A stretch of DNA of 64,000 bases from contig JAMPXP010000001.1 in NCBI GenBank assembly GCA_023701135.1, positions 186,001 through 250,000 of the forward strand, given 5' to 3'. Each line of letters starts with the position of its first letter. The stretch's first letter is position 1. The notes under the pieces were generated by a model, which saw only the letters and a list, made by a program, of their open reading frames with translations, made no database searches and had not been told where the DNA came from. Shown in pieces: positions 1-33,140 of the stretch. The stretch is from Desulfobacula sp. Its GTDB lineage: Bacteria; Desulfobacterota; Desulfobacteria; Desulfobacterales; Desulfobacteraceae. The position numbers were made by a program, and so were the translations under genes.

Positions 1-1859
1 TCAATTGTGATCAGTGTAATTATAGTGGCTTCAGATCCACTGGCATAATCTGTTTTGCCGGATAGGAAATTTTCAATCATGCGGGTCATGGGTTTCTTCT
101 TGAAATATCCTCTGTTAAGCGTTGAAGTATCCAATAAAATTTCACGAACAAAATCAGAGAGTTTTTTTACAAGCCATTCTCCGATGGGCATTGCAAATCC
201 CTGTTTTTTTTTATTCAAGGTATGAGCAGGAAGCATTGGGCGTAAAGCCTCTCTCATAATATATTTTTGCTGGGGTCCTCTGATTTTTAAATTCGGGGGA
301 ACTTTTAGGATAAATTCAACCAGGTCATTGTCATGAAACGGACTGATAGCATTCAAGGCGTGAGCTGAAGTCATCCGTTCGACTTTAATCATTAAATCAT
401 CCACCGCATAAGAAAGAACATCAAAATATAAAAGTTTGTTCAGCAACCCTTCACTCTTCACTTCCTTATACATGGTTCGTGCAATAGACATTGGATCTGT
501 CTTATAATTAACATCCAGCAAAGCATCATCATAAAGATGACATTTTAGCCATGGCGGTACCGGCATGCTCATCAGAATGCGCTGTTCCTCAAGTGGGAAT
601 GTTTCACGGTAAAGAAATCTTTTGGTTTTATCAATAATGCCGTTGCTTCCTGCTGTCAGTTTCATTCGAGTCACAAATTGATTTAAATATTCATTCCTAA
701 GCAACCGCTTAAACACAGAATCGTTTTTTTCTCGAGCCAGTGCAAACCGATGGTGACCTGAGCCACCGATTAACTGATCCGGAAAATCACCGGTTAAAAC
801 AGTATTAATTCTTTCTTTTGCAAGTTTTGCTGCATAATAGGATGGTATGGCAGATGTATCGGAAAAAGGGGCATCGTGATGCCACACTATTTTTTTAAGC
901 AGATCTGGAAAATCATTATCAAATTTTACTTTAATCAGGTATTGGTCCAAACTTAAATGGTTTGCAACAATTCTAGCGTCTTCGGTTTCATCGTATGCCT
1001 TTTCTTCAAAACCGGCAGTAAACACTTTAAAAGACTGTCCTTTCAATTTTTTCATTATAGCTACAACGCCGCTTGTATCAAGCCCGCCACTGAGAAAGGC
1101 ACCTGCCTCCGGGTATCTTCTTATTCTTCGGTCTACTGCGGTCATAAAAATTTCATGGAAAGCTTCAATAGATTCAGAATCACTTAAAAATTTTTCATTT
1201 TTATGGTAACCCAATTTCCAGTATTGTTTATTTTTTGTGTCTATATCTTTAAATTCAAGCACATGGCCAGGCTGAACCTGATGAATGGATTTGAACAAAG
1301 TATCCGGATTGGGAACATGACCATAGGAAAGAAAATTATTCATGGAGGTCAAGTCTACTGATTTGCGGCTTGTTTGAATAGCTGTAATAGCCTTTATTTC
1401 AGAAGCAAAAATGATGGCGTTCTCTGTTCTGGTATAATATAAGGGTTTTGTCCCTAGTCGATCCTTTGCGAGCAGTAGTTTTTTTTGTTTTCCATCCCAT
1501 ATTGCAAGCGAAAATGAACCATCTATCTCACTGAGAAAATCATCCCCTTTCTTCAAATACCATTCAAGAATTATTTCTGCATCCAACATGTCAGGACCGA
1601 GTATTTTTTCCTGATTCAATATATTGAAGACGCTACCATCCACGCAGACAAAAATTTCATTGGTGTCAGTATATGCAAGGACTTTTCCGACACATTCATG
1701 GTCGTGAAATCTTGCGCCCAATATGCCGATATTTTCCAAAAAAGCCTTATCTTTATTCAATGCTCTATGCCGGATGGTTTCGAGCATCAGGTCGCAATTT
1801 TTCTGATACTCCATATTTCCTGTTCCCTTAAAGCCTATAATACCTACAATACCACCCAT
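1..1859 (-). CDS. Asparagine-synthase-like protein, catalytic Cys replaced by Gly (3' end beyond window)
   Basis: About 619 codons are visible and the frame is still open at the window edge. The fold is that of glutamine-dependent asparagine synthase: an N-terminal Ntn-type domain, then an ATP-pyrophosphatase synthetase domain with the PP-loop SGGLDTSG near residue 253. The start is firm: AAAGGA lies 7 nt upstream of the ATG. The protein begins MGGIVGI where the family has MCGIVGI, so the glutaminase nucleophile Cys2 is Gly. The glutamine-pocket motif (usually NGEIYN) reads DGSVFN, and the synthetase motif near residue 350 reads TGDFPDQL in place of a GDGADEL-like motif. Inference: it cannot use glutamine in the normal way and may use free ammonia, another amine, or serve a different acyl-AMP reaction. 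It is the last visible gene of the exosortase locus, where amidotransferases of this kind are common, 31 nt after the rhodanese gene. Confidence 0.85.
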   Translation of the reverse strand, partial: MGGIVGIIGFKGTGNMEYQKNCDLMLETIRHRALNKDKAFLENIGILGARFHDHECVGKVLAYTDTNEIFVCVDGSVFNILNQEKILGPDMLDAEIILEWYLKKGDDFLSEIDGSFSLAIWDGKQKKLLLAKDRLGTKPLYYTRTENAIIFASEIKAITAIQTSRKSVDLTSMNNFLSYGHVPNPDTLFKSIHQVQPGHVLEFKDIDTKNKQYWKLGYHKNEKFLSDSESIEAFHEIFMTAVDRRIRRYPEAGAFLSGGLDTSGVVAIMKKLKGQSFKVFTAGFEEKAYDETEDARIVANHLSLDQYLIKVKFDNDFPDLLKKIVWHHDAPFSDTSAIPSYYAAKLAKERINTVLTGDFPDQLIGGSGHHRFALAREKNDSVFKRLLRNEYLNQFVTRMKLTAGSNGIIDKTKRFLYRETFPLEEQRILMSMPVPPWLKCHLYDDALLDVNYKTDPMSIARTMYKEVKSEGLLNKLLYFDVLSYAVDDLMIKVERMTSAHALNAISPFHDNDLVEFILKVPPNLKIRGPQQKYIMREALRPMLPAHTLNKKKQGFAMPIGEWLVKKLSDFVREILLDTSTLNRGYFKKKPMTRMIENFLSGKTDYASGSEATIITLITI

Positions 1860-1890: not shown

Positions 1891-2358
1891 CTAATTGATT
1901 CTTTGCATTTTGCCATCCGGTCCCATAACCTCCATCCAACCCCAGGGGGTCACCCAGATAAACCCAACTTGTTTCATGGCTGCCAACCCATTATCAATGA
2001 TATAAACCTTTTTAAACCCTTTTTTCTTAAGCTTCAGCGCCACACTGGAACTGTATCCTTCCCAATGGCCTCAATCACAGTAGACGCCGATAAGTTGCTC
2101 CTTTGGAAAGTTAAGTTTCATTTTATCAACCTTAAGGTGATCCAGATAATAAGCTCCCAGCACACTGGCCTTTTGTTTATTCTCACCAGGATGGACATCC
2201 AAAAGGACAATTTTTTTTTGTTGAGATAAAATAAAGGCATTTTGTGCGCTGAGACGGGGCAATTTTTTCATTTCTGAGTACTCATCCCCATATACTCTTC
2301 CGGCAATAAACACGGTCATAACTATTGAAAAAACCATTATTTTTTTTAGGCATCCCAT
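1891..2358 (-). CDS. Secreted rhodanese-like protein with in-frame UGA, probable selenoprotein
   Basis: The reading frame starts at an ATG behind a strong AGGAGGT (5 nt spacing). It encodes a hydrophobic signal sequence (residues 1-24, cleavage likely after VYG) and the first half of a rhodanese domain ending in YCD, then meets TGA at 2071-2073 (codon 96). The same frame continues without interruption for 59 codons to a TAG at 1891. It reads GHWEGYSSSVALKLKKKGF and then KVYIIDNGL, which is the expected second half of a rhodanese domain (Ser-rich loop, VA..L...GF.KVY, GL). The UGA sits where many rhodaneses have a second cysteine (YC-x-C). Read as selenocysteine, the protein is 155 residues with C94-D95-U96. 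A hairpin lies directly after the UGA. Alternatives are a recent nonsense mutation or a sequencing error of TGT/TGC. The intact downstream frame and conserved motif favour Sec. It lies between the GNAT-like gene and the AsnB-like gene. Confidence 0.72.
2043..2067 (-). promoter_or_regulatory. Candidate bacterial SECIS hairpin after the rhodanese UGA
   Basis: On the coding strand, CAUUGGGA pairs with UUCCAGUG (8 bp, two of them G-U) around a 9-nt loop AGGAUACAG. The stem starts 4 nt after the UGA. Bacterial SECIS elements lie just downstream of the UGA and carry a G in the first two loop positions; here G is the second loop base. The loop begins about 12 nt after the UGA, slightly closer than typical, so the fit is suggestive only. 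Confidence 0.45.
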
Positions 2359-2385
2359 ATAACACCTCCTGAATATGAAAAATAT

Positions 2386-3072
2386 TTAAGTCTTTAATGT
2401 ATCAAGATTTATGATTTTTCTACGGTGAGGGTTGTGCAGGCTTGCTTTGGATTGAATCCAATCCACACAGATTTCACGATTCCGGTATTGAATAAATAAA
2501 AGCTTACCGACCACATGCCCCCCAAGCCGGCTATGAACATCAATAGAATTATTATTAAGTGTACTGATTCTGCTATAAATATATTTGATATTCCGATTAG
2601 CTAAAAACTCAAATGCAAAGTCCCATAAAATGGAAAAAGCCGGAGTTAATCGATATTCATCCAATATCCACAAATCAAAATCCCAGGCAATTTCATTCCC
2701 CATTTTTAAATCACAAAACAAAATGTCTTCCTGGTATTTCTTTAGAATTATCCATAAAAATCCGATTGGATTCTGATCTTTGAGCACAACAAGGCAAATA
2801 GATTTCTGACCAAACCTGTAATCCAGTGTTTTGCGGGAAACTGGGAAGACTTTAAGCATGTCATGATATTGATCTAAAATTCTAACCGTGTAGCTTTTTT
2901 TTAAGAAAGACGGAACCTTTATCCTTTTTTGATCAACCGGCAGTAAAAAAAGGTAAATAAATTGGATGAAAATCTTATCTGAGATATAACCAAGTAACCG
3001 TTTTATAAAATAAACCGCATAGATAAAAAATCCATGCTCTTTAATACCATCTTTTATTTTATGTAAAAACAT
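2386..3072 (-). CDS. GNAT-like acyltransferase of the exosortase cassette
   Basis: The protein has 228 residues, with a basic and hydrophobic N-terminus (residues 15-50) and then a region resembling a GCN5-related N-acetyltransferase fold. Visible features are beta strands SICLVVLKDQNPIGFLWIIL, an acidic central segment DFDLWILDEYRLTPAF, and a C-terminal pair NNNSIDVHSRLGG and VVGKLLFIQYR typical of the GNAT helix-strand end. No strict acetyl-CoA Q/RxxGxG/A loop is clear, so the catalytic assignment is inference. It lies 21 nt after the decarboxylase gene and 27 nt before the rhodanese gene, so it is probably co-transcribed with both. It could transfer an acyl group from the nearby carrier protein. 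Confidence 0.6.
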   Translation of the reverse strand: MFLHKIKDGIKEHGFFIYAVYFIKRLLGYISDKIFIQFIYLFLLPVDQKRIKVPSFLKKSYTVRILDQYHDMLKVFPVSRKTLDYRFGQKSICLVVLKDQNPIGFLWIILKKYQEDILFCDLKMGNEIAWDFDLWILDEYRLTPAFSILWDFAFEFLANRNIKYIYSRISTLNNNSIDVHSRLGGHVVGKLLFIQYRNREICVDWIQSKASLHNPHRRKIINLDTLKT

Positions 3073-3093: not shown

Positions 3094-4353
3094 TTAACTC
3101 TGAACGAAAATCTCTCTGGGCGGTTCATGCCCAAGGAAGAGAAGTGGACTGGCAGAATAACCATAAGCGCCCGAATTCATGAAGACGATAAGATCCCCTT
3201 CACGAGATTTTGGGAGATCGATTTTAGAACCTAAAAGATCGAGAGGGGTGCACAGCGGCCCCACAACATCGACCTGTTCACATTCGGAGCCTGATACATT
3301 TGTCCCCATGATGATGGGAAAATTTTTTCTTAAGACTTGTCCAAAATTACCAGATGCCGCAAGATGGTGGTTCATTCCACCATCTGTAATTAAAAATGTT
3401 TTTCCCCTGGACTTTTTTTTATACAAAATCTTGGTGACATATATCCCGGATTCACCGACCAAGTATCTTCCCAATTCGATCACAAAAACCGCATTTGGAA
3501 ACTTAGGCTTATAGATTTGAATTAAGGATGCTAATCGACTGCCAATAGCACTGATATCCAGTTCTTCATCTTTGTTAAAATATGGGATTCCAAATCCGCC
3601 CCCCAGGTTAAGCATTCGTATGGATTCAGAAGCTTCCCCTGCGAGTTGAAGGCACAGTTTCAAGGATTGTTCCATAACATCGGTTATTGAATCGGCGCTT
3701 AAATTTTGTGAACCCGTGTAAATATGGAATCCCTGAAACTTTACAGGAAAATTGGAAATCTTTCCCAGCAAGCCCGGTATTCTTTCTGCATCTATTCCAA
3801 ATTGCTTTGCACCCCCTCCCATTTTAACACCTGACCCATGGAGTTCAAAATCTGGATTTATCCGGATAGAAATTTTCGGAATTTTATTTTGTCGTTTTGC
3901 CACCTCGGCAATCAACTCCAATTCTCTTTCTGATTCTATATTAATAGACCCGATACCAACCTGGACTGCATAGGAAAGTTCATCAATGGTTTTACCTGGG
4001 CCTGCAAAACTTACTGTTTCTGGATTGCCTCCTGATGTTATAATGGCTTTGATTTCCCCTGCTGATGCAGCATCAAAACCATCCACCAGCCCAACCATTC
4101 CCTTTAACAGTTTTATGGATGGATTTGCTTTGGCAGCATAAAACAGTTTTATCTCTGGCGGCATACACTGCCGGAAAAGCGATATTTTTTTTCTAATAAT
4201 TGAATGGTCATACAAATAAAAAGGTGTTCCATATCCGGTCGCCCAGTCAGTCAGCTTTTTACCAGCTATAATTAGCTGATTTTCTTTCACCTCAAAATTT
4301 TTCAGCGATCCTTGAATTACTTTTGATTGAATCATTAATACATGTCCATTCAA
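3094..4353 (-). CDS. PLP-dependent decarboxylase, exosortase A-associated type
   Basis: The protein has 419 residues and belongs to the fold III ornithine/diaminopimelate decarboxylase family. The PLP-binding lysine is in FYAAKANPS (about residue 70), the glycine-rich phosphate site is LNLGGGFGIPY, the HIYTGSQN strand follows, and the C-terminal active-site motif GPLCTPLDLL carries the catalytic Cys. The family decarboxylates a basic or meso amino acid to an amine; a subfamily is restricted to exosortase A loci. Its start overlaps the stop of the AMP-ligase gene (ATGA), implying translational coupling. Inference: it supplies an amine, or processes an amino acid, for the product of the ligase/ACP pair. 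The substrate is unknown. Confidence 0.88.
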   Translation of the reverse strand: MNGHVLMIQSKVIQGSLKNFEVKENQLIIAGKKLTDWATGYGTPFYLYDHSIIRKKISLFRQCMPPEIKLFYAAKANPSIKLLKGMVGLVDGFDAASAGEIKAIITSGGNPETVSFAGPGKTIDELSYAVQVGIGSINIESERELELIAEVAKRQNKIPKISIRINPDFELHGSGVKMGGGAKQFGIDAERIPGLLGKISNFPVKFQGFHIYTGSQNLSADSITDVMEQSLKLCLQLAGEASESIRMLNLGGGFGIPYFNKDEELDISAIGSRLASLIQIYKPKFPNAVFVIELGRYLVGESGIYVTKILYKKKSRGKTFLITDGGMNHHLAASGNFGQVLRKNFPIIMGTNVSGSECEQVDVVGPLCTPLDLLGSKIDLPKSREGDLIVFMNSGAYGYSASPLLFLGHEPPREIFVQS

Positions 4354-5951
4354 TGGTTATCTAATTTTTCATTTTCTAATTTTTTTAAAAGAGTTACATC
4401 AATTTTCCCTGTACCTGTCATAGGTAAATCTTCAAGAAATTCAACATATCTTGGCATCATAAACTGAGGAAGTGTTTGTGCACAATGATCCATCAGCTCA
4501 TCTTCTGTTAAAGTCACATTTTCATTGAGTGCAACAAAAACCTTAATGCTTTGCCCTCTGATTGAATCAGGTATGCCAATTGCTGCGACAAGTTTCACCT
4601 TTTCAATTTTATAAATCACTTCTTCAATTTCAGACGGACTGATTCTATGACCATAGCATTTAATCATATAATCCTGGCGGCCTACAAAATATAAATACCC
4701 GTCCTCATCTTTTTTTACAATATCTCCGGTATAAACGACCCGTTCGGTGGATTGAAAGCCATCCGGCAAAAACGGATTAAGCTTGAACATTTTTGCTGTT
4801 TTATCCGGGTCTGCCCAATATCCAAGCGACACTGTCGGTCCGCGATGCACCAGTTCGCCTGCCTCTTCTGGTTTACAAAGCTCCCCTTTCTTATTCACAA
4901 CTATCATTTCACAACCGGGGATGGCCTTTCCCATAGAGGTTGGACGAATGTTAATCTGATCCGGAGGAAGATAGGTTGACCGAAAAGCTTCTGTCAGTCC
5001 ATACATTAAAAATATTTTTGTGTCTGGAAAAACTTTTTTCAATTTTTCAATTGCTTTTGTTGGCAATGTTCCACCCGTATTTGTGATATAGCGAAGATCC
5101 TTGAACTGATTTTTGAAAACTGGTGACCCGATTTGAAGAAGCAGAAGCCAGACCGTTGGTATTCCGGCAAAACCTGTGATTTTCTCTTTTAACATGACAT
5201 CAACCAGTTCACCGGGAAAGCTAAATGATTTCATGATATAGGTCATCCCCATCAAGGCACATGAGGTGAGTTGGTTCAGTCCGGCATCAAAACTTAACGG
5301 TAAGACACCCATCAATCTGTCAGACTCTATATTTCCAACATAAGAAGTAACAATTCTTGCGCCAACAGTCAGATTGTCATGGGAAACCATAACACCTTTC
5401 GGCTTTCCGGTTGATCCGGAAGTATACAATAGTGCTGCAAGATCGTTGCCGATGCATTCGTCCGGCAAATCAGATACCCTTGCCCGGCTGTTTACGATTT
5501 CCTCAAAATTATAACATTTAATCGATAAATCCTTTGTCCAATAAGGCACATCACCCGAAACTAAAATATATTCTAAAAAACTCCAGTTCTTAATCTGTTT
5601 TTTCAGCAACTCAAGTCGCTGGGCGTCTAAAATAAGACCCTTAAGGGTGCAGTTATTGGCTATGTGATCGACCTGTTCACCATGAAGGAGTGAATTAATC
5701 GGAACATAAACGCCCCCGGCTTTTAAAATACCGAAAAACGAGAATGCCTGCTCTAATGAGTGAGACAGAAAAACACCGACTCTGTCTCCTCTTTTAGTCC
5801 CTGCGTCTTTGAGTACATGGGAAATCCTGTTTGTAACATCTTCTGTTTCCTGGTAAGAAAATCTTCTCTGGTCCTGAACGAGTGCTTCCTTATCAGGATG
5901 TTTTGCAGCGCTATCCCGCAGCAGATGGTGCATTAGATATTGCATTTTCAT
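4350..5951 (-). CDS. Acyl-CoA/acyl-ACP ligase (AMP-forming), exosortase A-associated type
   Basis: The protein has 533 residues and belongs to the ANL adenylating superfamily. It shows the P-loop-like motif LLYTSGSTGKPKGVMVSH (about residue 190), the A5 motif MYGLTEAFRS, the A7/A8 motif YTGDIVKKDEDGYLYFVGR with the hinge, and the A10 lysine in TGTGKID. It activates a carboxylic acid as an acyl-adenylate and passes it to a thiol, most likely the phosphopantetheine of the carrier protein encoded just upstream. The third codon is also ATG and is better spaced from the AAGGA, so the true start may be 5945. The gene is coupled to the decarboxylase downstream. Confidence 0.88.
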   Translation of the reverse strand: MKMQYLMHHLLRDSAAKHPDKEALVQDQRRFSYQETEDVTNRISHVLKDAGTKRGDRVGVFLSHSLEQAFSFFGILKAGGVYVPINSLLHGEQVDHIANNCTLKGLILDAQRLELLKKQIKNWSFLEYILVSGDVPYWTKDLSIKCYNFEEIVNSRARVSDLPDECIGNDLAALLYTSGSTGKPKGVMVSHDNLTVGARIVTSYVGNIESDRLMGVLPLSFDAGLNQLTSCALMGMTYIMKSFSFPGELVDVMLKEKITGFAGIPTVWLLLLQIGSPVFKNQFKDLRYITNTGGTLPTKAIEKLKKVFPDTKIFLMYGLTEAFRSTYLPPDQINIRPTSMGKAIPGCEMIVVNKKGELCKPEEAGELVHRGPTVSLGYWADPDKTAKMFKLNPFLPDGFQSTERVVYTGDIVKKDEDGYLYFVGRQDYMIKCYGHRISPSEIEEVIYKIEKVKLVAAIGIPDSIRGQSIKVFVALNENVTLTEDELMDHCAQTLPQFMMPRYVEFLEDLPMTGTGKIDVTLLKKLENEKLDNH

Positions 5952-5984: not shown

Positions 5985-6239
5985 TTAGTTTACTGGCGTT
6001 TCTTTATTTTCTATGAACCTTATAATATCCAAAATTGTATTGAAATTCTCAGGTGTCAAATCGTCTTCTTCAATATTAACACCCAATTCTTCGATTAAAT
6101 AATTAACAATTTCCAGGATACCTAATGAGTCAATGATTCCTGTTTCAAGTAAAGGATCATCGTAATTAATATTTTTTTTTCTGGCCAAAGGAAAGGTTGA
6201 TAAAATAAATTGTTTTATCTTTTCTTTTAAATTTTGCAT
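5985..6239 (-). CDS. Acyl carrier protein
   Basis: A small acidic protein of 84 residues. Its core LLETGIIDSLGILEIVNYL carries the DSLG phosphopantetheine attachment serine (about residue 39). The length and four-helix pattern fit the ACP/PCP family. It lies 33 nt before the acyl-AMP ligase, so it is the probable acceptor of that ligase's acyl group. This is not the fatty-acid synthesis ACP context; it is a dedicated carrier in the polysaccharide/exosortase locus. Confidence 0.88.
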   Translation of the reverse strand: MQNLKEKIKQFILSTFPLARKKNINYDDPLLETGIIDSLGILEIVNYLIEELGVNIEEDDLTPENFNTILDIIRFIENKETPVN

Positions 6240-6285
6240 TGTTGTCCTCTTGCTAAAGTGATCCTCTAATATAAATGGATTGCGG

Positions 6286-7734
6286 CTATGAAATCAAATC
6301 TTTACCCAAAGATCGAATTTCTGTATACGTGTCTTTTGAAAAAATATAATAATACCATAGAAAAACAATAATTCCTGAAAAAATAGAAATCCCCATGGTT
6401 GTAAACGAAATGGTTTTGTTTGAAAATAAATAAAATTTTATAAAAAATCCGGAAATAACCATTAATAAAGATCCAAAAAAGGCATGACGAACAGTTTTAA
6501 AGGTCTCGGTAAATGTAATCTGTATTTCCTTTTTAATTAAGAAAAGTAAATAAAAGGATAAAACAGGGAAACACAGCATCCAGCTTATAGCGACACCGGA
6601 TATACCAAAATTTACTCCAATTAAAAAACTGGCCGGTAAAAGAATAGATGAATATAAAGAATACCTGAATGCGGCGTTAACATTGCCTTTTACTTTTAGA
6701 ATAACCAGCAAAAATCCGGTATAGGATCTAAAAATTGCCCAGACGCAAAATATCCGCAAAACGAAAAGACTAGGCAGCCATTTATCAGATAAAATCAACA
6801 CAATGATATCTTCAGATATCAAAAAAATTCCCAAGAAAACCGGGAAGGCAAAAAGCGAAATTAATTGAAAAACTTTATAAAAATAATTTCTGAACTGTTC
6901 ATTATCATTTTGTAATTTTGCAAAAACAGGGAAAGTGACCTTGTTGGTTATAGCTATAACCCTTGTAATAGGCATCTTGGCCAGAGAAAGCGCAACCTGA
7001 TAATATCCTAAGGCATTCTGACCCAAAAATCGACCAATGATTATTGAATCACTGCTCTGGTTAAAATATTCCAGAAGGGATTGACCCGTTGCGGTCACCC
7101 CATATCGAATCATTTTTTTAATATCACCCAAGCGAAAATAAAATTTCAGCTCCCACTTGGAAAGGATAAATATTAATACACATGAAGACAAATCTTTAAA
7201 CACCTGGCTTAATATTAAACTCCATACCCCCAGGCCCATAATCGCCATGATAAGGCAGGATGCAATCCCTACAATTCCAGAACTAAGCTCTGCAAACCCC
7301 CTTCTTTTGAACTCAAACTTTTTAGCCATCAGTACAAAGGGGATTTCCTGTATGGCAAGAAAAATAGTGCTTATGGATAAAACTCTTATTAATGGAACAA
7401 TGGCTTCATTCGAGAAAAAATATCCGCAGGGTATGGCCAAAAACCATGACAATACATACAGAATCAGCCCAATAATTGTAGTAAGCCAGAAAGCACTATG
7501 GCTTTCGCCGTCTGTCAGGTCTGCTTTTTGTAGAACAGCAAGCCCGATACCCAGATCATAGATGATAATTAAAATGCCCTGGTACACCAAGGCCATTCCG
7601 AAAAGGCCGTAGTCCGCCGGGGTGAGTATCCGCATAACAATAATGCTGGAGACCATCGAAATGATTTGCCCGATGATCTTTGTCGCCCCGACCCAGAATA
7701 CGCTTTTGACAGCTTGCTGCCTCAATTGAGTCAT
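6286..7734 (-). CDS. Polysaccharide flippase, Wzx/MOP family
   Basis: The protein has 482 residues and is highly hydrophobic, with about 12 to 14 predicted membrane segments. It carries the N-terminal amphipathic start and first helix pattern of the MOP/Wzx family (SVFWVGATKIIGQIISMVSS, then RILTPADYGLFGMALVYQG). It should move lipid-linked repeat units across the inner membrane. The end of the acyltransferase-3 gene start is only a few bases away, and the ACP gene follows at 46 nt. The base composition is clearly AT-rich compared with the export genes at 20-29 kb. Confidence 0.88.
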   Translation of the reverse strand: MTQLRQQAVKSVFWVGATKIIGQIISMVSSIIVMRILTPADYGLFGMALVYQGILIIIYDLGIGLAVLQKADLTDGESHSAFWLTTIIGLILYVLSWFLAIPCGYFFSNEAIVPLIRVLSISTIFLAIQEIPFVLMAKKFEFKRRGFAELSSGIVGIASCLIMAIMGLGVWSLILSQVFKDLSSCVLIFILSKWELKFYFRLGDIKKMIRYGVTATGQSLLEYFNQSSDSIIIGRFLGQNALGYYQVALSLAKMPITRVIAITNKVTFPVFAKLQNDNEQFRNYFYKVFQLISLFAFPVFLGIFLISEDIIVLILSDKWLPSLFVLRIFCVWAIFRSYTGFLLVILKVKGNVNAAFRYSLYSSILLPASFLIGVNFGISGVAISWMLCFPVLSFYLLFLIKKEIQITFTETFKTVRHAFFGSLLMVISGFFIKFYLFSNKTISFTTMGISIFSGIIVFLWYYYIFSKDTYTEIRSLGKDLIS

Positions 7735-8885: not shown

Positions 8886-9833
8886 CTATATGTCTAATAC
8901 TGACATTTCAAATGGAAAATTTCGGTTTAATGCAAATAAATCTGTTTCGAAGTTATTTTTTCCAGTCTCAGTTGTTACGGCACATTTAAACCCAAGCTGT
9001 TTGATTATAGGGATAAGCTCTTGAGAAAAATCTGATTTTTTCCCGAAAGGATAGGCAAAGCTATACACCTGTTTTTTTGTTTCCGCTTCAATTATTTCTT
9101 TTGACAGCTTTATTTCCTTCTTTGCACTTTCTATGCTGATTTGACTCAACACCGGATGACTTACCGTATGGGCACCGAATGAAATGCCATAATCTGACAT
9201 TTCCCGTATCTGATCCCAATTTAACATTAAATTTTCAAGGGGTTTAAAATTATCTATTTCAAGAATCTCATACAGTGTATTCAGAAATTGGTCCCGTTGT
9301 TCCTCAGGGCAGCTTCTCATATAAGACATCACCTTGTCTGAAGCAACTTTTCTTTCAATTTTACTATTTGTCGGAAAATTATAATCAGTGTCTATAATTT
9401 TGATTTGAATATGGTTTTTTGGAGTTTCCATAAAAGCATAACGGAATTTAATAAACCAGGGTGTTGATTTTTTATTGATAAAGTCCGTTGTCAGAAATAT
9501 GGTTGCCGGTAATTTGTATTGTTTTAAAACAGGATAGACAAGCTCATAATTGTCTAAGAAGCCGTCATCAAAGGTTATAACAACATAGCCTCTCAAGGAT
9601 TGTTTTTTTTCAAGCCGCTCCACAAGCGTCTTAAAGTCGATTACCGTATAATTTTGGGCAAGATGGGCCATTTCCTTTTTAAAAGAAAGCAGATCATTTT
9701 CAGGATAGAAACCGTTAGGTTTTTCTACAATGCTGTGATAGGGCAGAACATAAAACTGATTTTTTAAATGATTCAGTTTGTATAATTTGGTTTTTAAAAA
9801 TATCCGTTTGATGGTGTGTTTTGTAATGGTCAT
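8886..9833 (-). CDS. Polysaccharide deacetylase (NodB domain)
   Basis: The protein has 315 residues. Its NodB homology domain carries TFDDGFLDNYELVYPVL (metal/catalytic Asp pair) near residue 88 and the metal His motif FGAHTVSHPVLS near residue 218. There is no clear signal peptide, so it may be cytoplasmic or act on a membrane-side intermediate. It is one of two NodB-type proteins in the locus; the other (18169-19125) belongs to the exosortase-associated subfamily. It lies 16 nt downstream of the GT4 gene. Confidence 0.87.
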   Translation of the reverse strand: MTITKHTIKRIFLKTKLYKLNHLKNQFYVLPYHSIVEKPNGFYPENDLLSFKKEMAHLAQNYTVIDFKTLVERLEKKQSLRGYVVITFDDGFLDNYELVYPVLKQYKLPATIFLTTDFINKKSTPWFIKFRYAFMETPKNHIQIKIIDTDYNFPTNSKIERKVASDKVMSYMRSCPEEQRDQFLNTLYEILEIDNFKPLENLMLNWDQIREMSDYGISFGAHTVSHPVLSQISIESAKKEIKLSKEIIEAETKKQVYSFAYPFGKKSDFSQELIPIIKQLGFKCAVTTETGKNNFETDLFALNRNFPFEMSVLDI

Positions 9834-9849
9834 GCTATTAATTTCGTAT

Positions 9850-10998
9850 TTATGCAGGTGTTAAATATTCATATTGTTCAATGAGTTCATGCTTTGCCAT
9901 TCCCCAGTTATAAAGGTTCAAGCCGGCTGATTTTGCATTTTCGCTGAATTTGGTGAAATTATTATCCTGTAAAAAATCAAGTGCTGTTTTTATTTCATCA
10001 ATTGAATAGTCTTTTAATATGATTCCACAGTTGTTCTGCTTTACTATTTTTCCAATTTCTCCGAAATCACAGGTCAAAATTACTTTCCCGGCAGCAAGAC
10101 CTTCAAAAAGTTTATTGGGTGCACTGAAAGCTGCATTGGGGACATTTGGGTCAAACCCGTAAAATACAATGTCAGAAACAGCCGTGTACAATGGAATTTC
10201 TGATGGATTCACATAGCCAAGATAGGTGATATTTGAATAATTGGCTGCGGCATCTGCTGCCAGATTTTCACAAGGGCCATAACCGCCCAGAATCAGATAT
10301 ACACCCGGACTTTGTTTAACTGCATCTATCAGTTGCGGCAATTGTCTTTCAATACCCAGATGGGCAATAAAAACAATAACGAGCTGATTTTTCTGTATGA
10401 CGAACCGATCCAGGATTCTGTATTTTTCTTCCAAAGTAAAAACAAATTTTTCAGGATCCTGCCAGTTACCGACCACACAGGCTTTTGGTGCGCCTCTTTT
10501 GACAAGGTATTCCTTTAGGATATCACCCACAGTGATGACAAGATCGGTTCGTTTCATGAAAAAATTTTCAGCCTTGAAAATCATTTTTTTAAGCAATGAC
10601 GGGATATTCAATAACATATCAATATAACTTTCGTGGGCATCATAAACCAATCTTGCTTTTTTAATCCTTGAAATAATAAAGCCCAACGGCAAGGTATCAA
10701 AATCATGGGCGTGAACAATATCAATTTTTTTTTTATAAAGAGTTTTAAATAAGGCCTTAATCCAAAAAAGAAAAAGGAATAATATCTGCGAGCTTCCCCT
10801 GCCGTGAGTAGAGGGAATATAAATTCTTTCTATTTTTATTCCCTCTATTATCTCGAAGAGAGGTTTTTTAAGATCACGATCCCAACATAAAATTTCAACA
10901 TCATATCCTTTTTCAATCAAGGCGATGGCTTCTCGATGAACGCGAGGATCAGGATTAAACGCATTGGAAAGCAACATTAATATCTTTTTAGTTTTCAA
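9850..10998 (-). CDS. Glycosyltransferase family 4
   Basis: The protein has 382 residues and two Rossmann domains (GT-B). The N-terminal part contains LLSNAFNPDPRVHREAIAL; the C-terminal part has FSAPNKLFEGLAAGKVIL, the usual donor-binding region (the classical EX7E is degenerate). It should add a sugar from a nucleotide donor to the lipid-linked repeat unit at the inner face of the membrane. It is one of only two clear glycosyltransferases in the window, besides the initiating sugar transferase. This implies a short repeat unit or further transferases elsewhere. Confidence 0.87.
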   Translation of the reverse strand: MKTKKILMLLSNAFNPDPRVHREAIALIEKGYDVEILCWDRDLKKPLFEIIEGIKIERIYIPSTHGRGSSQILFLFLFWIKALFKTLYKKKIDIVHAHDFDTLPLGFIISRIKKARLVYDAHESYIDMLLNIPSLLKKMIFKAENFFMKRTDLVITVGDILKEYLVKRGAPKACVVGNWQDPEKFVFTLEEKYRILDRFVIQKNQLVIVFIAHLGIERQLPQLIDAVKQSPGVYLILGGYGPCENLAADAAANYSNITYLGYVNPSEIPLYTAVSDIVFYGFDPNVPNAAFSAPNKLFEGLAAGKVILTCDFGEIGKIVKQNNCGIILKDYSIDEIKTALDFLQDNNFTKFSENAKSAGLNLYNWGMAKHELIEQYEYLTPA

Positions 10999-20389: not shown

Positions 20390-21259
20390 TTATCCTTGGT
20401 GCTTTTGAATTTTCATTTCAACCATAAAAACCAGATATACCAGGATCAGGGCAGCCCCGAAAATTATGAGGCCGGACATGTCATGAAGAAACCCATGGGC
20501 GGTTTCAGGGCCGATCCAGGCAGCCATGGCGCCGGTGATGGTCAGGCGGATGACATTGACGGCAACGGCAATGGGCACGGCGGACAAAAAGAGTATCCAT
20601 TTTTTGAACGTGCTTAAGGGGGCCAGAAAGGCAAAGGCTCCGGTCAGGGCCAGCAGCGAGGTGAGTGATCTTATACCGGAACAGGCATCCACCACTTCAA
20701 GGGAGGTATTGGCCAGATGAAGGATATTGCCTTCCCTGAACACCGGGATATGGAGCAGGTTAATGGCCTTGGCCGATATCTGGGCTGAAAAAAGCTGAAG
20801 GGGAAAGGCCACCTGATTCCACAGGATGGAAGGAATGGGAATCATCATGATGAGATAGGCAACGGGAACCAGCAGCTTTTTAAAAATTTCAAATCCGCAG
20901 AAATAAATAATGATGCCCGACAGGGTGATGATCATGGAAAAGCGCATGAGAAAAAGTTCCGACCCAAGATTTCCTGCCAGGTGGACCAGCATGCCGCCGA
21001 TAATTACGATAATGCCGGTCAGGGAAGGGCTCAGTTCCATGTCCGCCAGTTCGTTTTTTTTATACCAGATCATATACAGGGCCACAAAGGGGATTAAAAA
21101 CCCATGGGAAAAATTGGGGTCCGTGGACCAGTCTGAAATGAGTTTTAAAATGGCTTTCTGATAGACAACTAGAAAGACGGCCGTTAGAATGAAAATCTGG
21201 AAAAGCGTTTGTTTTTTAATGGATAGGTTCATGGGCGCATCAGTTTGGAATATGCTCAT
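20390..21259 (-). CDS. xrtA: Exosortase (XrtA-like transpeptidase)
   Basis: The integral membrane protein has 289 residues and about eight helices. The catalytic triad of exosortases is visible: Cys193 in VVDACSGIRSL, Arg238 in NVIRLT and His259 in GFLHDMSGLIIF. Exosortases recognise C-terminal PEP-CTERM signals on secreted proteins and process them. A PEP-CTERM protein is encoded at 32305-33042. The longest start overlaps epsI by 20 nt; the tenth codon (ATG at 21232) is an equally good start. Unlike the D-type exosortases fused to EpsI, this one is separate from EpsI. Confidence 0.93.
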   Translation of the reverse strand: MSIFQTDAPMNLSIKKQTLFQIFILTAVFLVVYQKAILKLISDWSTDPNFSHGFLIPFVALYMIWYKKNELADMELSPSLTGIIVIIGGMLVHLAGNLGSELFLMRFSMIITLSGIIIYFCGFEIFKKLLVPVAYLIMMIPIPSILWNQVAFPLQLFSAQISAKAINLLHIPVFREGNILHLANTSLEVVDACSGIRSLTSLLALTGAFAFLAPLSTFKKWILFLSAVPIAVAVNVIRLTITGAMAAWIGPETAHGFLHDMSGLIIFGAALILVYLVFMVEMKIQKHQG

Positions 21260-21875
21260 TCAGGTAGGGAAAGGCCTTTTGAGCAAATTCTTTTAAAAGG
21301 TTGACGGAAGCGGTTTCATCCTTGACCACCGGGGTAATGAGACGGACAAAGGAGCCGTCGGTTCTGTGCCGGAAGATGGAATCAAGGACCAGCCAGACTT
21401 TTTCCATGTATTCGGAAGAAATGATCCTTCCCCTGGATTGAAACCAGTAGAGTACAATCTGTTTTTCCGGCCCCTTCTGAAGCAGCAGTTTTATCACCTT
21501 CATGCTCTTTCCGGTGCTGTCCAGGGGAACGGTTTCAATGCCGGTTCCTGTGATATTCCATCCGGCGCCGGGCATGCAGTTTTTCGGAGAATGGATGATA
21601 TCCCCTTCTTTCTGGCTCTGATAAAATCCCACATAGAGATTCACCATTTCCCCGGTAGGTTTCCGGTAATTGGCAAGAATATAGTCCTCGACCCCGAGAA
21701 TATTGTAGACCTTTTCGTCCATCTCGCTGGTAACGCCTTTCCACTCGTCAATGTCAAGGGGAAATTCGCTGAAAGGCTTATTGGGGGCGATTCTTTCGGT
21801 CTGGCCGGCAAAAAAAGTCACGGCCGACGTGATGAGCAAAATGGCAAGGGTGATGAATGTTTTTGTGTAGGTCAT
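21240..21875 (-). CDS. epsI: EpsI, exosortase-associated protein
   Basis: The protein has 211 residues and an N-terminal signal/anchor (residues 7-24). Conserved motifs are FPLDIDEWKG, YVGFYQSQKEGD, the Cys-containing HSPKNCMPGAGW and LYWFQSRGRIISSEY. EpsI always accompanies exosortases of polysaccharide loci; its biochemical role is unsettled. No Shine-Dalgarno sequence is visible before the ATG: the 10 nt upstream read CTAAACAAAA and then a 14-bp tandem repeat array starts. Confidence 0.9.
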   Translation of the reverse strand: MTYTKTFITLAILLITSAVTFFAGQTERIAPNKPFSEFPLDIDEWKGVTSEMDEKVYNILGVEDYILANYRKPTGEMVNLYVGFYQSQKEGDIIHSPKNCMPGAGWNITGTGIETVPLDSTGKSMKVIKLLLQKGPEKQIVLYWFQSRGRIISSEYMEKVWLVLDSIFRHRTDGSFVRLITPVVKDETASVNLLKEFAQKAFPYLNEHIPN

Positions 21876-32304: not shown

Positions 32305-33042
32305 TTAAGCGATATTGGTTTTCTTCCGCATTCTTGAAGCAAGCCCCAGAAGCCCTGCACCAAAGAGCATCAGGGTGGCAGGTTCGGGAACGGCATCACC
32401 GGGGGTGCTTGTGGTAATCTTAAGTGTTATTCCACTATTATAAAAATGACAATCCGGATCAAATCCAAGACCGAAAATCGTATGAGCCGCATATTCGTTT
32501 ATTTTTTCCAAGCTGGCAAACGATGTCGCTTGAAATGACCCTCCCTTCAAATAGGTTGGATCGCTTAAACTGCTTTTAAAAGATGCTCCTGAAGCATTAA
32601 TAGTAACCGTAATATTCATGCCATCATTACTTTCAGTTAGATTACCGGTAGCTCTATCCCAAAGTTCATCCTTATTCAAATCATTAAACTGGAATAACAA
32701 GGGTGCTGTATTAAAATAATTAGAGAATCCTGGCGTACTGTCAGTATATTCTTTAACCGTAGCATAAGATGGGTTCAAAAGGCTGACATAAAGGACATTG
32801 GCTGCATTGTCCCAGTTACGAATATTGTCAAAAATCAAAGAAAACTCTGTGATAGTTTCGTTATCTTCTAAATCCAAATCGATTCCCCATCTATAGGCCT
32901 TGGCATGATCCAAATCATTTAAATCATTGTCGCCAAACTCATTGCCTGAAGGGTAATAATAGTGTTCAGATGCAGACACAAGTCCATTCAGCATTAAAAC
33001 CACCAACATCCCCGCCAACACTGACAACCAAGTTTTTTTCAT
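32305..33042 (-). CDS. PEP-CTERM protein, exosortase substrate
   Basis: The protein has 245 residues from the ATG at 33042, chosen because GGAGG lies 4 nt before it; the longer frame has no such site. It has an N-terminal signal peptide (MKKTWLSVLAGMLVVLMLNG, cleavage near VSA). The C-terminal tripartite signal is VPEP (about residues 218-221), the hydrophobic ATLMLFGAGLLGLA and the basic SRMRKK. The exosortase at 20390-21259 should process it. The central part (DLDHAKAYRWGIDLDLEDNE, NLTESNDGMNITVTINASG) is beta-rich and has no enzyme motif that I recognise; it is probably a secreted matrix or surface protein. Confidence 0.9.
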   Translation of the reverse strand: MKKTWLSVLAGMLVVLMLNGLVSASEHYYYPSGNEFGDNDLNDLDHAKAYRWGIDLDLEDNETITEFSLIFDNIRNWDNAANVLYVSLLNPSYATVKEYTDSTPGFSNYFNTAPLLFQFNDLNKDELWDRATGNLTESNDGMNITVTINASGASFKSSLSDPTYLKGGSFQATSFASLEKINEYAAHTIFGLGFDPDCHFYNSGITLKITTSTPGDAVPEPATLMLFGAGLLGLASRMRKKTNIA

Positions 33043-33066
33043 CATTCCTCCAAATTTATTTGCCCC

Positions 33067-33096
33067 AATATATATCATATTAAAATCCATAATCAA
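33067..33096 (-). promoter_or_regulatory. Candidate sigma-70 promoter of the PEP-CTERM gene
   Basis: TTGATT (33091-33096), 18-bp spacer, TATATT (33067-33072). It would start transcription near 33060 with a short leader carrying GGAGG. It is an alternative to the sigma-54-like site upstream; the sequence alone does not decide. Confidence 0.4.
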
Positions 33097-33124
33097 TTTA
33101 AATTTCATGTTGAATTCAAAATAA

Positions 33125-33140
33125 AGCAAGATGCATACCG
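33125..33140 (-). promoter_or_regulatory. Candidate sigma-54 promoter of the PEP-CTERM gene
   Basis: On the minus strand CGGTATGCATCTTGCT: GG, exactly 10 bp, then GC, with the -12 part TTGCT perfect and three mismatches in the -24 part. Sigma-54 control of PEP-CTERM genes by the PrsK/PrsR system is known in other exosortase bacteria. No PrsK/PrsR is in this window. Confidence 0.38.

Follow-up and report, generated by a model that had tools for sequence, protein, structure and literature searches.

The 64,000-nucleotide stretch of the Desulfobacula sp. assembly GCA_023701135.1 analyzed here (contig JAMPXP010000001.1, positions 186,001 to 250,000; hereafter the window) contains a minus-strand gene of 155 codons that very probably encodes a single-domain rhodanese selenoprotein, secreted as judged by eye, in which the UGA at codon 96 specifies selenocysteine (Sec). 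This assignment, which a first-pass annotation of the window had proposed from the letters alone, is upheld by the Sec machinery of the source genome, a TGA that each of the seven distinct genes of a small clade has at this column, the interchange of Sec with Cys in two proteins of the related family NF041203 (L184 and L185), the conservation of the frame downstream of the UGA, and a selenocysteine insertion sequence (SECIS) hairpin that covaries among the relatives.

A rhodanese frame with an internal UGA

The first-pass annotation had described a rhodanese frame split by a TGA and preceded by a strong ribosome binding site and a signal sequence. All of these features were recovered (Table 1), with the signal sequence accepted by eye, and the product is predicted to be probably secreted. 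As the annotation had also anticipated for gene callers, an ordinary list of open reading frames (ORFs) gives only a piece of 95 amino acids (2071-2358) for this gene. The full frame scored 27.0 bits against the Pfam rhodanese model (PF00581, gathering score 22.2) and hence belongs to this family, whereas the 59 amino acids beyond the UGA scored 13.3 bits and the 95 amino acids before it matched no Pfam family when taken alone. Both halves therefore make up one rhodanese domain, as had been claimed. Modeled with AlphaFold, the complete frame took on a rhodanese fold with a mean predicted local distance difference test score of 90.9, and the fold-similarity lists were composed mostly of entries named rhodanese or sulfurtransferase, including GlpE (1gmx) and the Wolinella polysulfide-sulfur transferase (1qxn). 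The column of Cys94 was invariant in 15/15 rows of a rhodanese alignment. The UGA had been placed at the second position of a YC-x-U motif, and this placement is supported; one correction is that the canonical catalytic position is Cys94, which aligns with the invariant Cys of ordinary rhodaneses, and the predicted Sec96 is an additional chalcogen.

Table 1. Features of the Sec-rhodanese locus and neighboring genes, in window coordinates.
Feature	Position	Strand	Remarks
Sec-rhodanese gene (predicted)	1891..2358	minus	155 codons; ATG at 2358-2356, TAG at 1893-1891
In-frame TGA, probable Sec96	2071..2073	minus	codon 96, sole in-frame TGA; motif Y93-C94-D95-U96
Codons Y93, C94, D95	2074..2082	minus	Cys94 aligned with canonical catalytic Cys of rhodaneses
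Ribosome binding site AGGAGG	2365..2370	minus	six bases before ATG; from sequence
Probable signal peptide, residues 1-24	2287..2358	minus	by eye; helix 3-31 in predicted structure
Candidate SECIS hairpin CAGU-U-CCA-GUG-UGG-C-GCUG	2035..2053	minus	apical GUG at 2045-2043, 25 nucleotides after UGA
Asparagine synthase/amidotransferase, XrtA/PEP-CTERM type	1..1859	minus	next gene downstream; end outside window (L078:17973-19859)
GNAT-like acetyltransferase	2386..3072	minus	next gene upstream, same direction; PF00583, 21.2 vs 20.7 bits
Pyridoxal phosphate (PLP) decarboxylase, exosortase A system-associated	3094..4353	minus	TIGR03099 over cut-off
Acyl-CoA ligase, exosortase A system-associated	4350..5951	minus	TIGR03098, 581.7 bits, just under cut-off 592.35
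Acyl carrier protein-like	5985..6239	minus	no model above cut-off
Exosortase	20390..21259	minus	TIGR02602, 198.4 vs 105.55; XrtA-specific model, 196.8 vs 208
EpsI-family protein	21240..21875	minus	TIGR02914

A clade of relatives with the same TGA column

In the family, a search of 86 genomes yielded only 14 matches in 13 genomes; eight of the matches carried a TGA, including the six best (the window gene among them), each with one TGA. Orthologues were therefore sought across the order and the phylum. A two-row profile matched 246 of 389 genomes of the order, where the 11 best rows all contained a TGA. Among the 29 loci read from this search, 18 had a TGA at the same column (YCxU or YUxU) and 11 were other rhodaneses. 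Besides the window gene, the clade includes L044/L073 (YCDU), L045/L074 (YURU), L048/L075 (YCYU), and L054/L076 (YUPU), where a near-copy of L048/L075 in G349 (L077; 13,002 of 14,000 bases identical without gaps) was counted together with it as one. When a profile built from these five genes was searched against 364 genomes of the phylum, it recovered L157/L191 (140.4 bits, YCDU) and L158/L192 (117.7 bits, YCEU), neither of which had been used to build it, and the match after these scored 65.9 bits.

A TGA occupied the Sec column in 7/7 distinct clade genes, and TAA or TAG in 0/7. A check of position 96 among homologues, suggested by the first-pass annotation, hence returned U throughout the clade and Cys in L184 and L185 rather than random residues. 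In a FastTree phylogeny that covered 76 sequences, with five ordinary rhodaneses as the root, exactly the seven clade genes were grouped (support 0.946), and the window gene was paired with L192 (support 0.948). Identity was retained on both sides of the UGA, with 29/64 residues before and 21/54 after it between the window protein and L192, and 47/75 and 32/48, respectively, between L073 and L191. Third codon positions were the most divergent in all six half-by-half comparisons, and by this measure the frame downstream of the UGA is conserved.

These comparisons bear on the possibility that the TGA is a true stop, which would leave a pseudogene, a sequencing error, or a truncated protein of 95 residues. 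Such a reading is highly improbable. It agrees with the standard ORF output, with the weakness of the window hairpin described below, and with the use of TGA as a normal stop in 6/24 minus-strand genes examined between 2386 and 29627; however, seven distinct genes, drawn from several genomes and families, have a TGA at this column and a conserved frame beyond it, the truncated piece matches no Pfam family and only the first half of the fold would be left in it, and the L192 orthologue shares both the TGA and the upstream neighbors. A reassignment of UGA was rejected on the same count of 6/24 neighboring genes that stop at TGA.

Further searches returned no additional members. The clade profile gave none in samples of the order and of the class, whose genomes largely overlap, where the training genes and the G349 near-copy scored 172-217 bits and the next match 61 bits. 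A first scan of genome contigs with the window protein as the query returned no relative, a second with L044 returned 17, and a search of plasmids returned no match. Among the 14 of the 17 that were read (L145, L149, and L156 were left unread), only L140 and L141 contained a YCxU motif. These two are YCSU rhodaneses of Acidobacteria near nucleotide-sugar enzymes; L140 includes two seemingly tandem genes (L140:5814-6125 and 6147-6464, the second by eye), and the gene of L141 lies at L141:10001-10300.

Relation to known selenocysteine rhodaneses

Rhodanese selenoproteins with a CxU motif are already known, and the window protein and its clade constitute a new variant of them. Passages of PMC13188914 equate the rhodanese-like "form 3", with a CxU motif, with NF041203, and a passage of PMC9312934 gives this accession as COG0607 form 2, also with CxU. 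PMC1088965, PMC2398784, and PMC8318568 also include Sec-rhodaneses in a table or passage. The only rhodanese passage in PMC1794560 is a reference to YbbB, and this source was not used.

Among the NCBIfam models, NF041203 (rhodanese_LYCAU) gave the window protein its highest-ranking match, which at 46.9 bits stayed below the cut-off of 115. The proteins of this model, annotated as "rhodanese-related (seleno)protein", resemble the window protein in the rhodanese domain, in a Y-C-x-U motif at the same place, in a SECIS hairpin with an apical GU at a similar distance, and, by eye, in the signal-like N-termini of several members. In contrast, the window protein falls far under the cut-off, and its clade forms a separate branch in the phylogeny and has A-M after the GG motif where NF041203-type proteins have x-W; membership was rejected on the score. 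Compared with E. coli GlpE and other single-domain rhodaneses, the window protein has a signal-like N-terminus, a longer active-site loop, and its predicted Sec two residues past the catalytic Cys. For the model NF045521 (rhoda_near_glyco), a likeness was suggested only by its name, a rhodanese near glycosyl-related genes, and membership was rejected at 21.4 bits against a cut-off of 145.

A search of 345 genomes of the phylum with NF041203 gave 75 matches above the cut-off in 53 genomes, of which 68 contained a TGA, six no stop, and one only a TAA. The seven copies without TGA had CxC in two cases (L184 and L185) and Ser, encoded each time by TCA, in five (L186-L190), all of the latter from genomes of one family (f80). 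The TCA codon is one base from the TGA of the relatives, and L186 still has most of the hairpin. In L190, a TAA stands just before the first active-site Cys.

A SECIS hairpin shared among relatives

The bacterial SECIS (bSECIS) model, as given in passages of PMC13188914, has a loop of 3-9 nucleotides (nt) with G in the first two, located 16-37 nt from the UGA, an upper stem of 4-16 base pairs, and an energy of at most -7.5. The candidate hairpin of the window fits this model in its GUG loop and 25-nt spacing but falls slightly short of it in energy and has a mismatch in the upper stem. The first-pass annotation had noted a hairpin after the UGA, and this claim was sustained in part: the minimum-energy hairpin directly after the UGA was unremarkable (z -0.98, with 31/200 shuffles folding at least as well), while the relatives share another, more distal hairpin, which corresponds to the candidate at 2053-2035. 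The minimum-energy hairpin was rejected as the shared element, as it was not significant and differs from that of the relatives.

The shared hairpin was examined in 65 regions, namely 64 distinct YxU regions identified by pattern and L045. An unguided scan for a loop 14-37 nt after the UGA with G in its first two bases, for which the published lower bound of 16 is stricter, found a hairpin in all regions but L178 (64/65) and a GU within the loop in 54/65. The mean best energy was -9.7, compared with -5.6 in synonymous recodings, and 19/65 regions, the window gene not among them, were matched by at most 3/60 recodings. Pairing was then evaluated at fixed coordinates, picked after the folds had been seen, in the 60 regions that had no codon gaps. 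The loop G was present in 60/60, and the five inner stem pairs were paired in 95-100% of the regions, several of them with more than one pair type. The seven pairs overall were paired at 0.81. Synonymous recoding (300 sets) gave 0.59 (maximum 0.64), shuffling of the columns (1000 times) gave 0.71 (maximum 0.74), and sliding gave 0.22-0.48.

The window gene, L075, L076, L192, and L045 have another spacing and lay outside this test. When hand-chosen loop segments of these five and of L073 and L191 were compared, the GU was kept in 7/7, 85.2% of the pairs were formed (a level reached by 0/500 shuffles), and 8/8 pairs changed on both sides; the hand choice of segments favors the structure. On the evidence of these alignments, a SECIS hairpin with an apical GU covaries across the relatives, which fit the bSECIS model better than the window gene does. 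Among the NF041203 copies without TGA, the fractions of the seven pairs formed were 0.29 and 0.29 in the two with Cys and 0.71, 0.14, 0.43, 0.29, and 0.57 in the five with Ser, so that a loss of the hairpin without Sec appears only as a trend.

Selenocysteine machinery

The first-pass annotation had suggested a search for selA, selB, selC, and selD in the same genome, and all four were present in the source assembly (4.8 Mb, 98.87% complete, 42 contigs). SelA scored 612.9 bits and SelB 352.9 bits (above the cut-off), the tRNA-Sec scored 76.8 bits with the anticodon TCA in ARAGORN, and SelD, itself with a TGA, was above its cut-off; the genome thus encodes the full set expected for a bacterial selenoprotein. 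SelD was found in 5/5 genomes tested, comprising the source genome and four others of the clade. Among the 24 genomes whose TGA-rhodaneses were read, a sample that does not cover all such genomes and has G399 and G602 outside it, SelB was above the cut-off in 18; among the 13 genomes with a completeness of 90% or more and a contamination of 5% or less, the figure was 12.

The UGA might also be decoded as Cys or Trp, or passed by unspecific readthrough, with no involvement of selenium. Nothing directly favors this explanation, apart from the Cys that L184 and L185 of NF041203 have in place of Sec, and it has little probability given the full Sec machinery of the source genome, the covarying SECIS of the relatives, which is not kept in those two Cys copies, and the function of UGA as a stop in other genes.

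Several observations weigh against the assignment of Sec. The window hairpin had an energy of -5.0 kcal/mol alone and -7.0 in a context of 36-39 nt, compared with the published -7.5; it reached -7.4 when forced in a longer stretch, its upper stem is interrupted by one mismatch, and a competing fold of the region was stronger (-11.7). The unguided scan placed the best hairpin of the window gene in a different register (loop UGG, -6.8), and 7/60 synonymous recodings equalled it. In the 60-region test, the two outer pairs of the seven were paired at only 0.23 and 0.53. SelB was unmatched in 6/24 genomes with TGA-rhodaneses, five of them 70-87% complete (G201, G228, G352, G159, and G186) and one 95% complete (G178), and G201 is one of the genomes of the clade. 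Additionally, a Cys form of the clade itself was not found in the genomes searched.

Genomic neighborhood

The window resembles known XrtA/PEP-CTERM exopolysaccharide loci, with an exosortase (TIGR02602) and XrtA-associated genes nearby. These include EpsI as well as the TIGR03099 decarboxylase, a TIGR03006 deacetylase, and a TIGR03013 glycosyltransferase, the last three each over its cut-off, while a TIGR03019 match was below (236.3 vs 260.35). The asparagine synthase was under the cut-off for TIGR03108 and over that for TIGR01536. A protein at 32305-33129 has a PEP-CTERM-like tail (VPEPATLMLFGAGLLGLASRMRKK) and is by eye a likely exosortase substrate, without an NCBIfam match.

The same gene order, with the same TGA, was observed around L192 in a genome (G602) of another family of the phylum, where the ligase (61% identity), the decarboxylase (58%), and the GNAT homologue (41%) are followed by the rhodanese. 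A polysaccharide-cluster setting was found for 7/7 distinct clade members. L073, L075, and L191 have another polysaccharide cluster in common (genes 50-69% identical), which encodes a glycosyltransferase, Wzy_C, and weakly heparinase-like proteins, and L074 includes homologues of the deacetylase (52%) and the acyltransferase (48%) of the window. An exosortase stands near the rhodanese in three of the seven distinct loci, namely the window, L076, and L075 (also in the near-copy L077). As a control, a homologue of the cluster genes was found within 1.5 kb of 7/7 clade members, compared with 2/58 other Sec-rhodaneses (L140 and L141), a single homology count that further separates the clade from NF041203 and is biased to the clade, as its query genes were drawn from clusters of clade members. 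For L045, the only homologues counted were those of its own region (L074, with a Pfam polysaccharide flippase at 9395-10936), and 6/7 therefore rest on genes of another genome. The first-pass annotation had called a secreted Sec-rhodanese in an exosortase locus unusual; the setting was correct and recurs in the clade, while CxU rhodanese selenoproteins as such were not new.

Several neighboring genes hint at the product of these clusters. The source genome has a D-glucuronyl C5-epimerase gene (PF06662) some 3.7 kb ahead of the window (L078:13261-14304), a weakly heparinase-like gene at L073:1948-4785 has a homologue in L075, and L192 includes one clear and one weak sulfotransferase gene (L192:3759-4700 and 6248-6994). 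With these genes, the clusters may make uronic-acid, perhaps sulfated, polymers.

Possible function

By comparison with relatives, SelB and tRNA-Sec very probably read the UGA as Sec with the aid of the SECIS hairpin, which yields an active-site loop of Y-Cys94-Asp-Sec96. In the proposed mechanism, this Cys94/Sec96 pair would cycle in the periplasm between a selenol-thiol and a selenenyl-sulfide form, and the enzyme would reduce persulfides or disulfides instead of acting as a thiosulfate sulfurtransferase. Such reduction appears to suit a selenol-thiol pair in a periplasmic rhodanese better than the storage of sulfur would, and the double-Sec relatives fit this. The reductase mechanism is possible, if tentative.

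An ordinary sulfur carrier or sulfurtransferase is an equal rival, in which Cys94 would carry a persulfide as in GlpE or the Wolinella enzyme and Sec96 would tune or resolve it. This alternative, held with the same reserve, agrees with the alignment of Cys94 to the canonical catalytic Cys, the folds of the two enzymes just named, the sulfotransferase gene in the L192 cluster, and a ThiF-family gene (L076:10664-11545) one gene away from the double-Sec rhodanese of L076. On the other hand, the YUxU relatives (L045 and L054/L076 in the clade and nine outside it) fit a redox pair at least as well, and the predicted secretion would separate the rhodanese from a cytosolic ThiF. Both chalcogen positions are TGA in L043, L045, L054, L058, L061, L070, L117, L123, L127, L136, and L170.

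Exosortases have a catalytic Cys. Under the reductase mechanism, the enzyme might protect a client thiol in the periplasm that belongs to the surface-polymer machinery, such as this Cys, from inactivation by polysulfide; a role in the assembly of surface polymers is suggested by the neighborhood, and the client is a guess. It is a rather unlikely proposal that in some bacteria a dedicated secreted CxU (sometimes UxU) selenorhodanese keeps a periplasmic Cys of the sorting or export machinery free of persulfide, which would make assembly dependent on selenium. Counting against a tie to exosortases, no exosortase was recognized in L073, L074, L191, and L192 within the stretches examined.

Through this clade, the use of selenium is connected with exosortases and the assembly of exopolysaccharides. 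Among titles and abstract openings retrieved for exosortase with selenoprotein or rhodanese, or for Sec-rhodanese with exopolysaccharide, no link between selenium and exosortases was found, and the words exosortase and polysaccharide are absent from the main text of PMC13188914. In the same titles and abstract openings, a Sec-rhodanese is not described as a component of XrtA/PEP-CTERM loci, in which respect the window differs from them. As the ORF list cuts the gene at the UGA and the best curated model stays under its cut-off, the clade has probably been missed in annotation. The protein is small and open to experiment, with its two chalcogen residues nearly adjacent in a rhodanese fold; if the proposal is true, surface-polymer assembly in some bacteria would hinge on the supply of selenium.

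Other rhodaneses of the source genome

The source assembly contained 13 rhodanese matches, three of which had a single internal TGA: the window gene, a longer rhodanese on contig 9, and a small YCNU protein on contig 18. The second (L011, C9:64627-64869) carries a ferritin-like part C-terminal to its rhodanese domain and has U at the canonical catalytic Cys (VYUAIGGRS), where its homologue in G013 (L042) has Cys. The third (L018, C18:149193-149393) and L034 are small YCNU rhodaneses without an obvious signal sequence and form a second type of Sec-rhodanese in the genus; L018 is located, by eye, near a thiolase-like gene.
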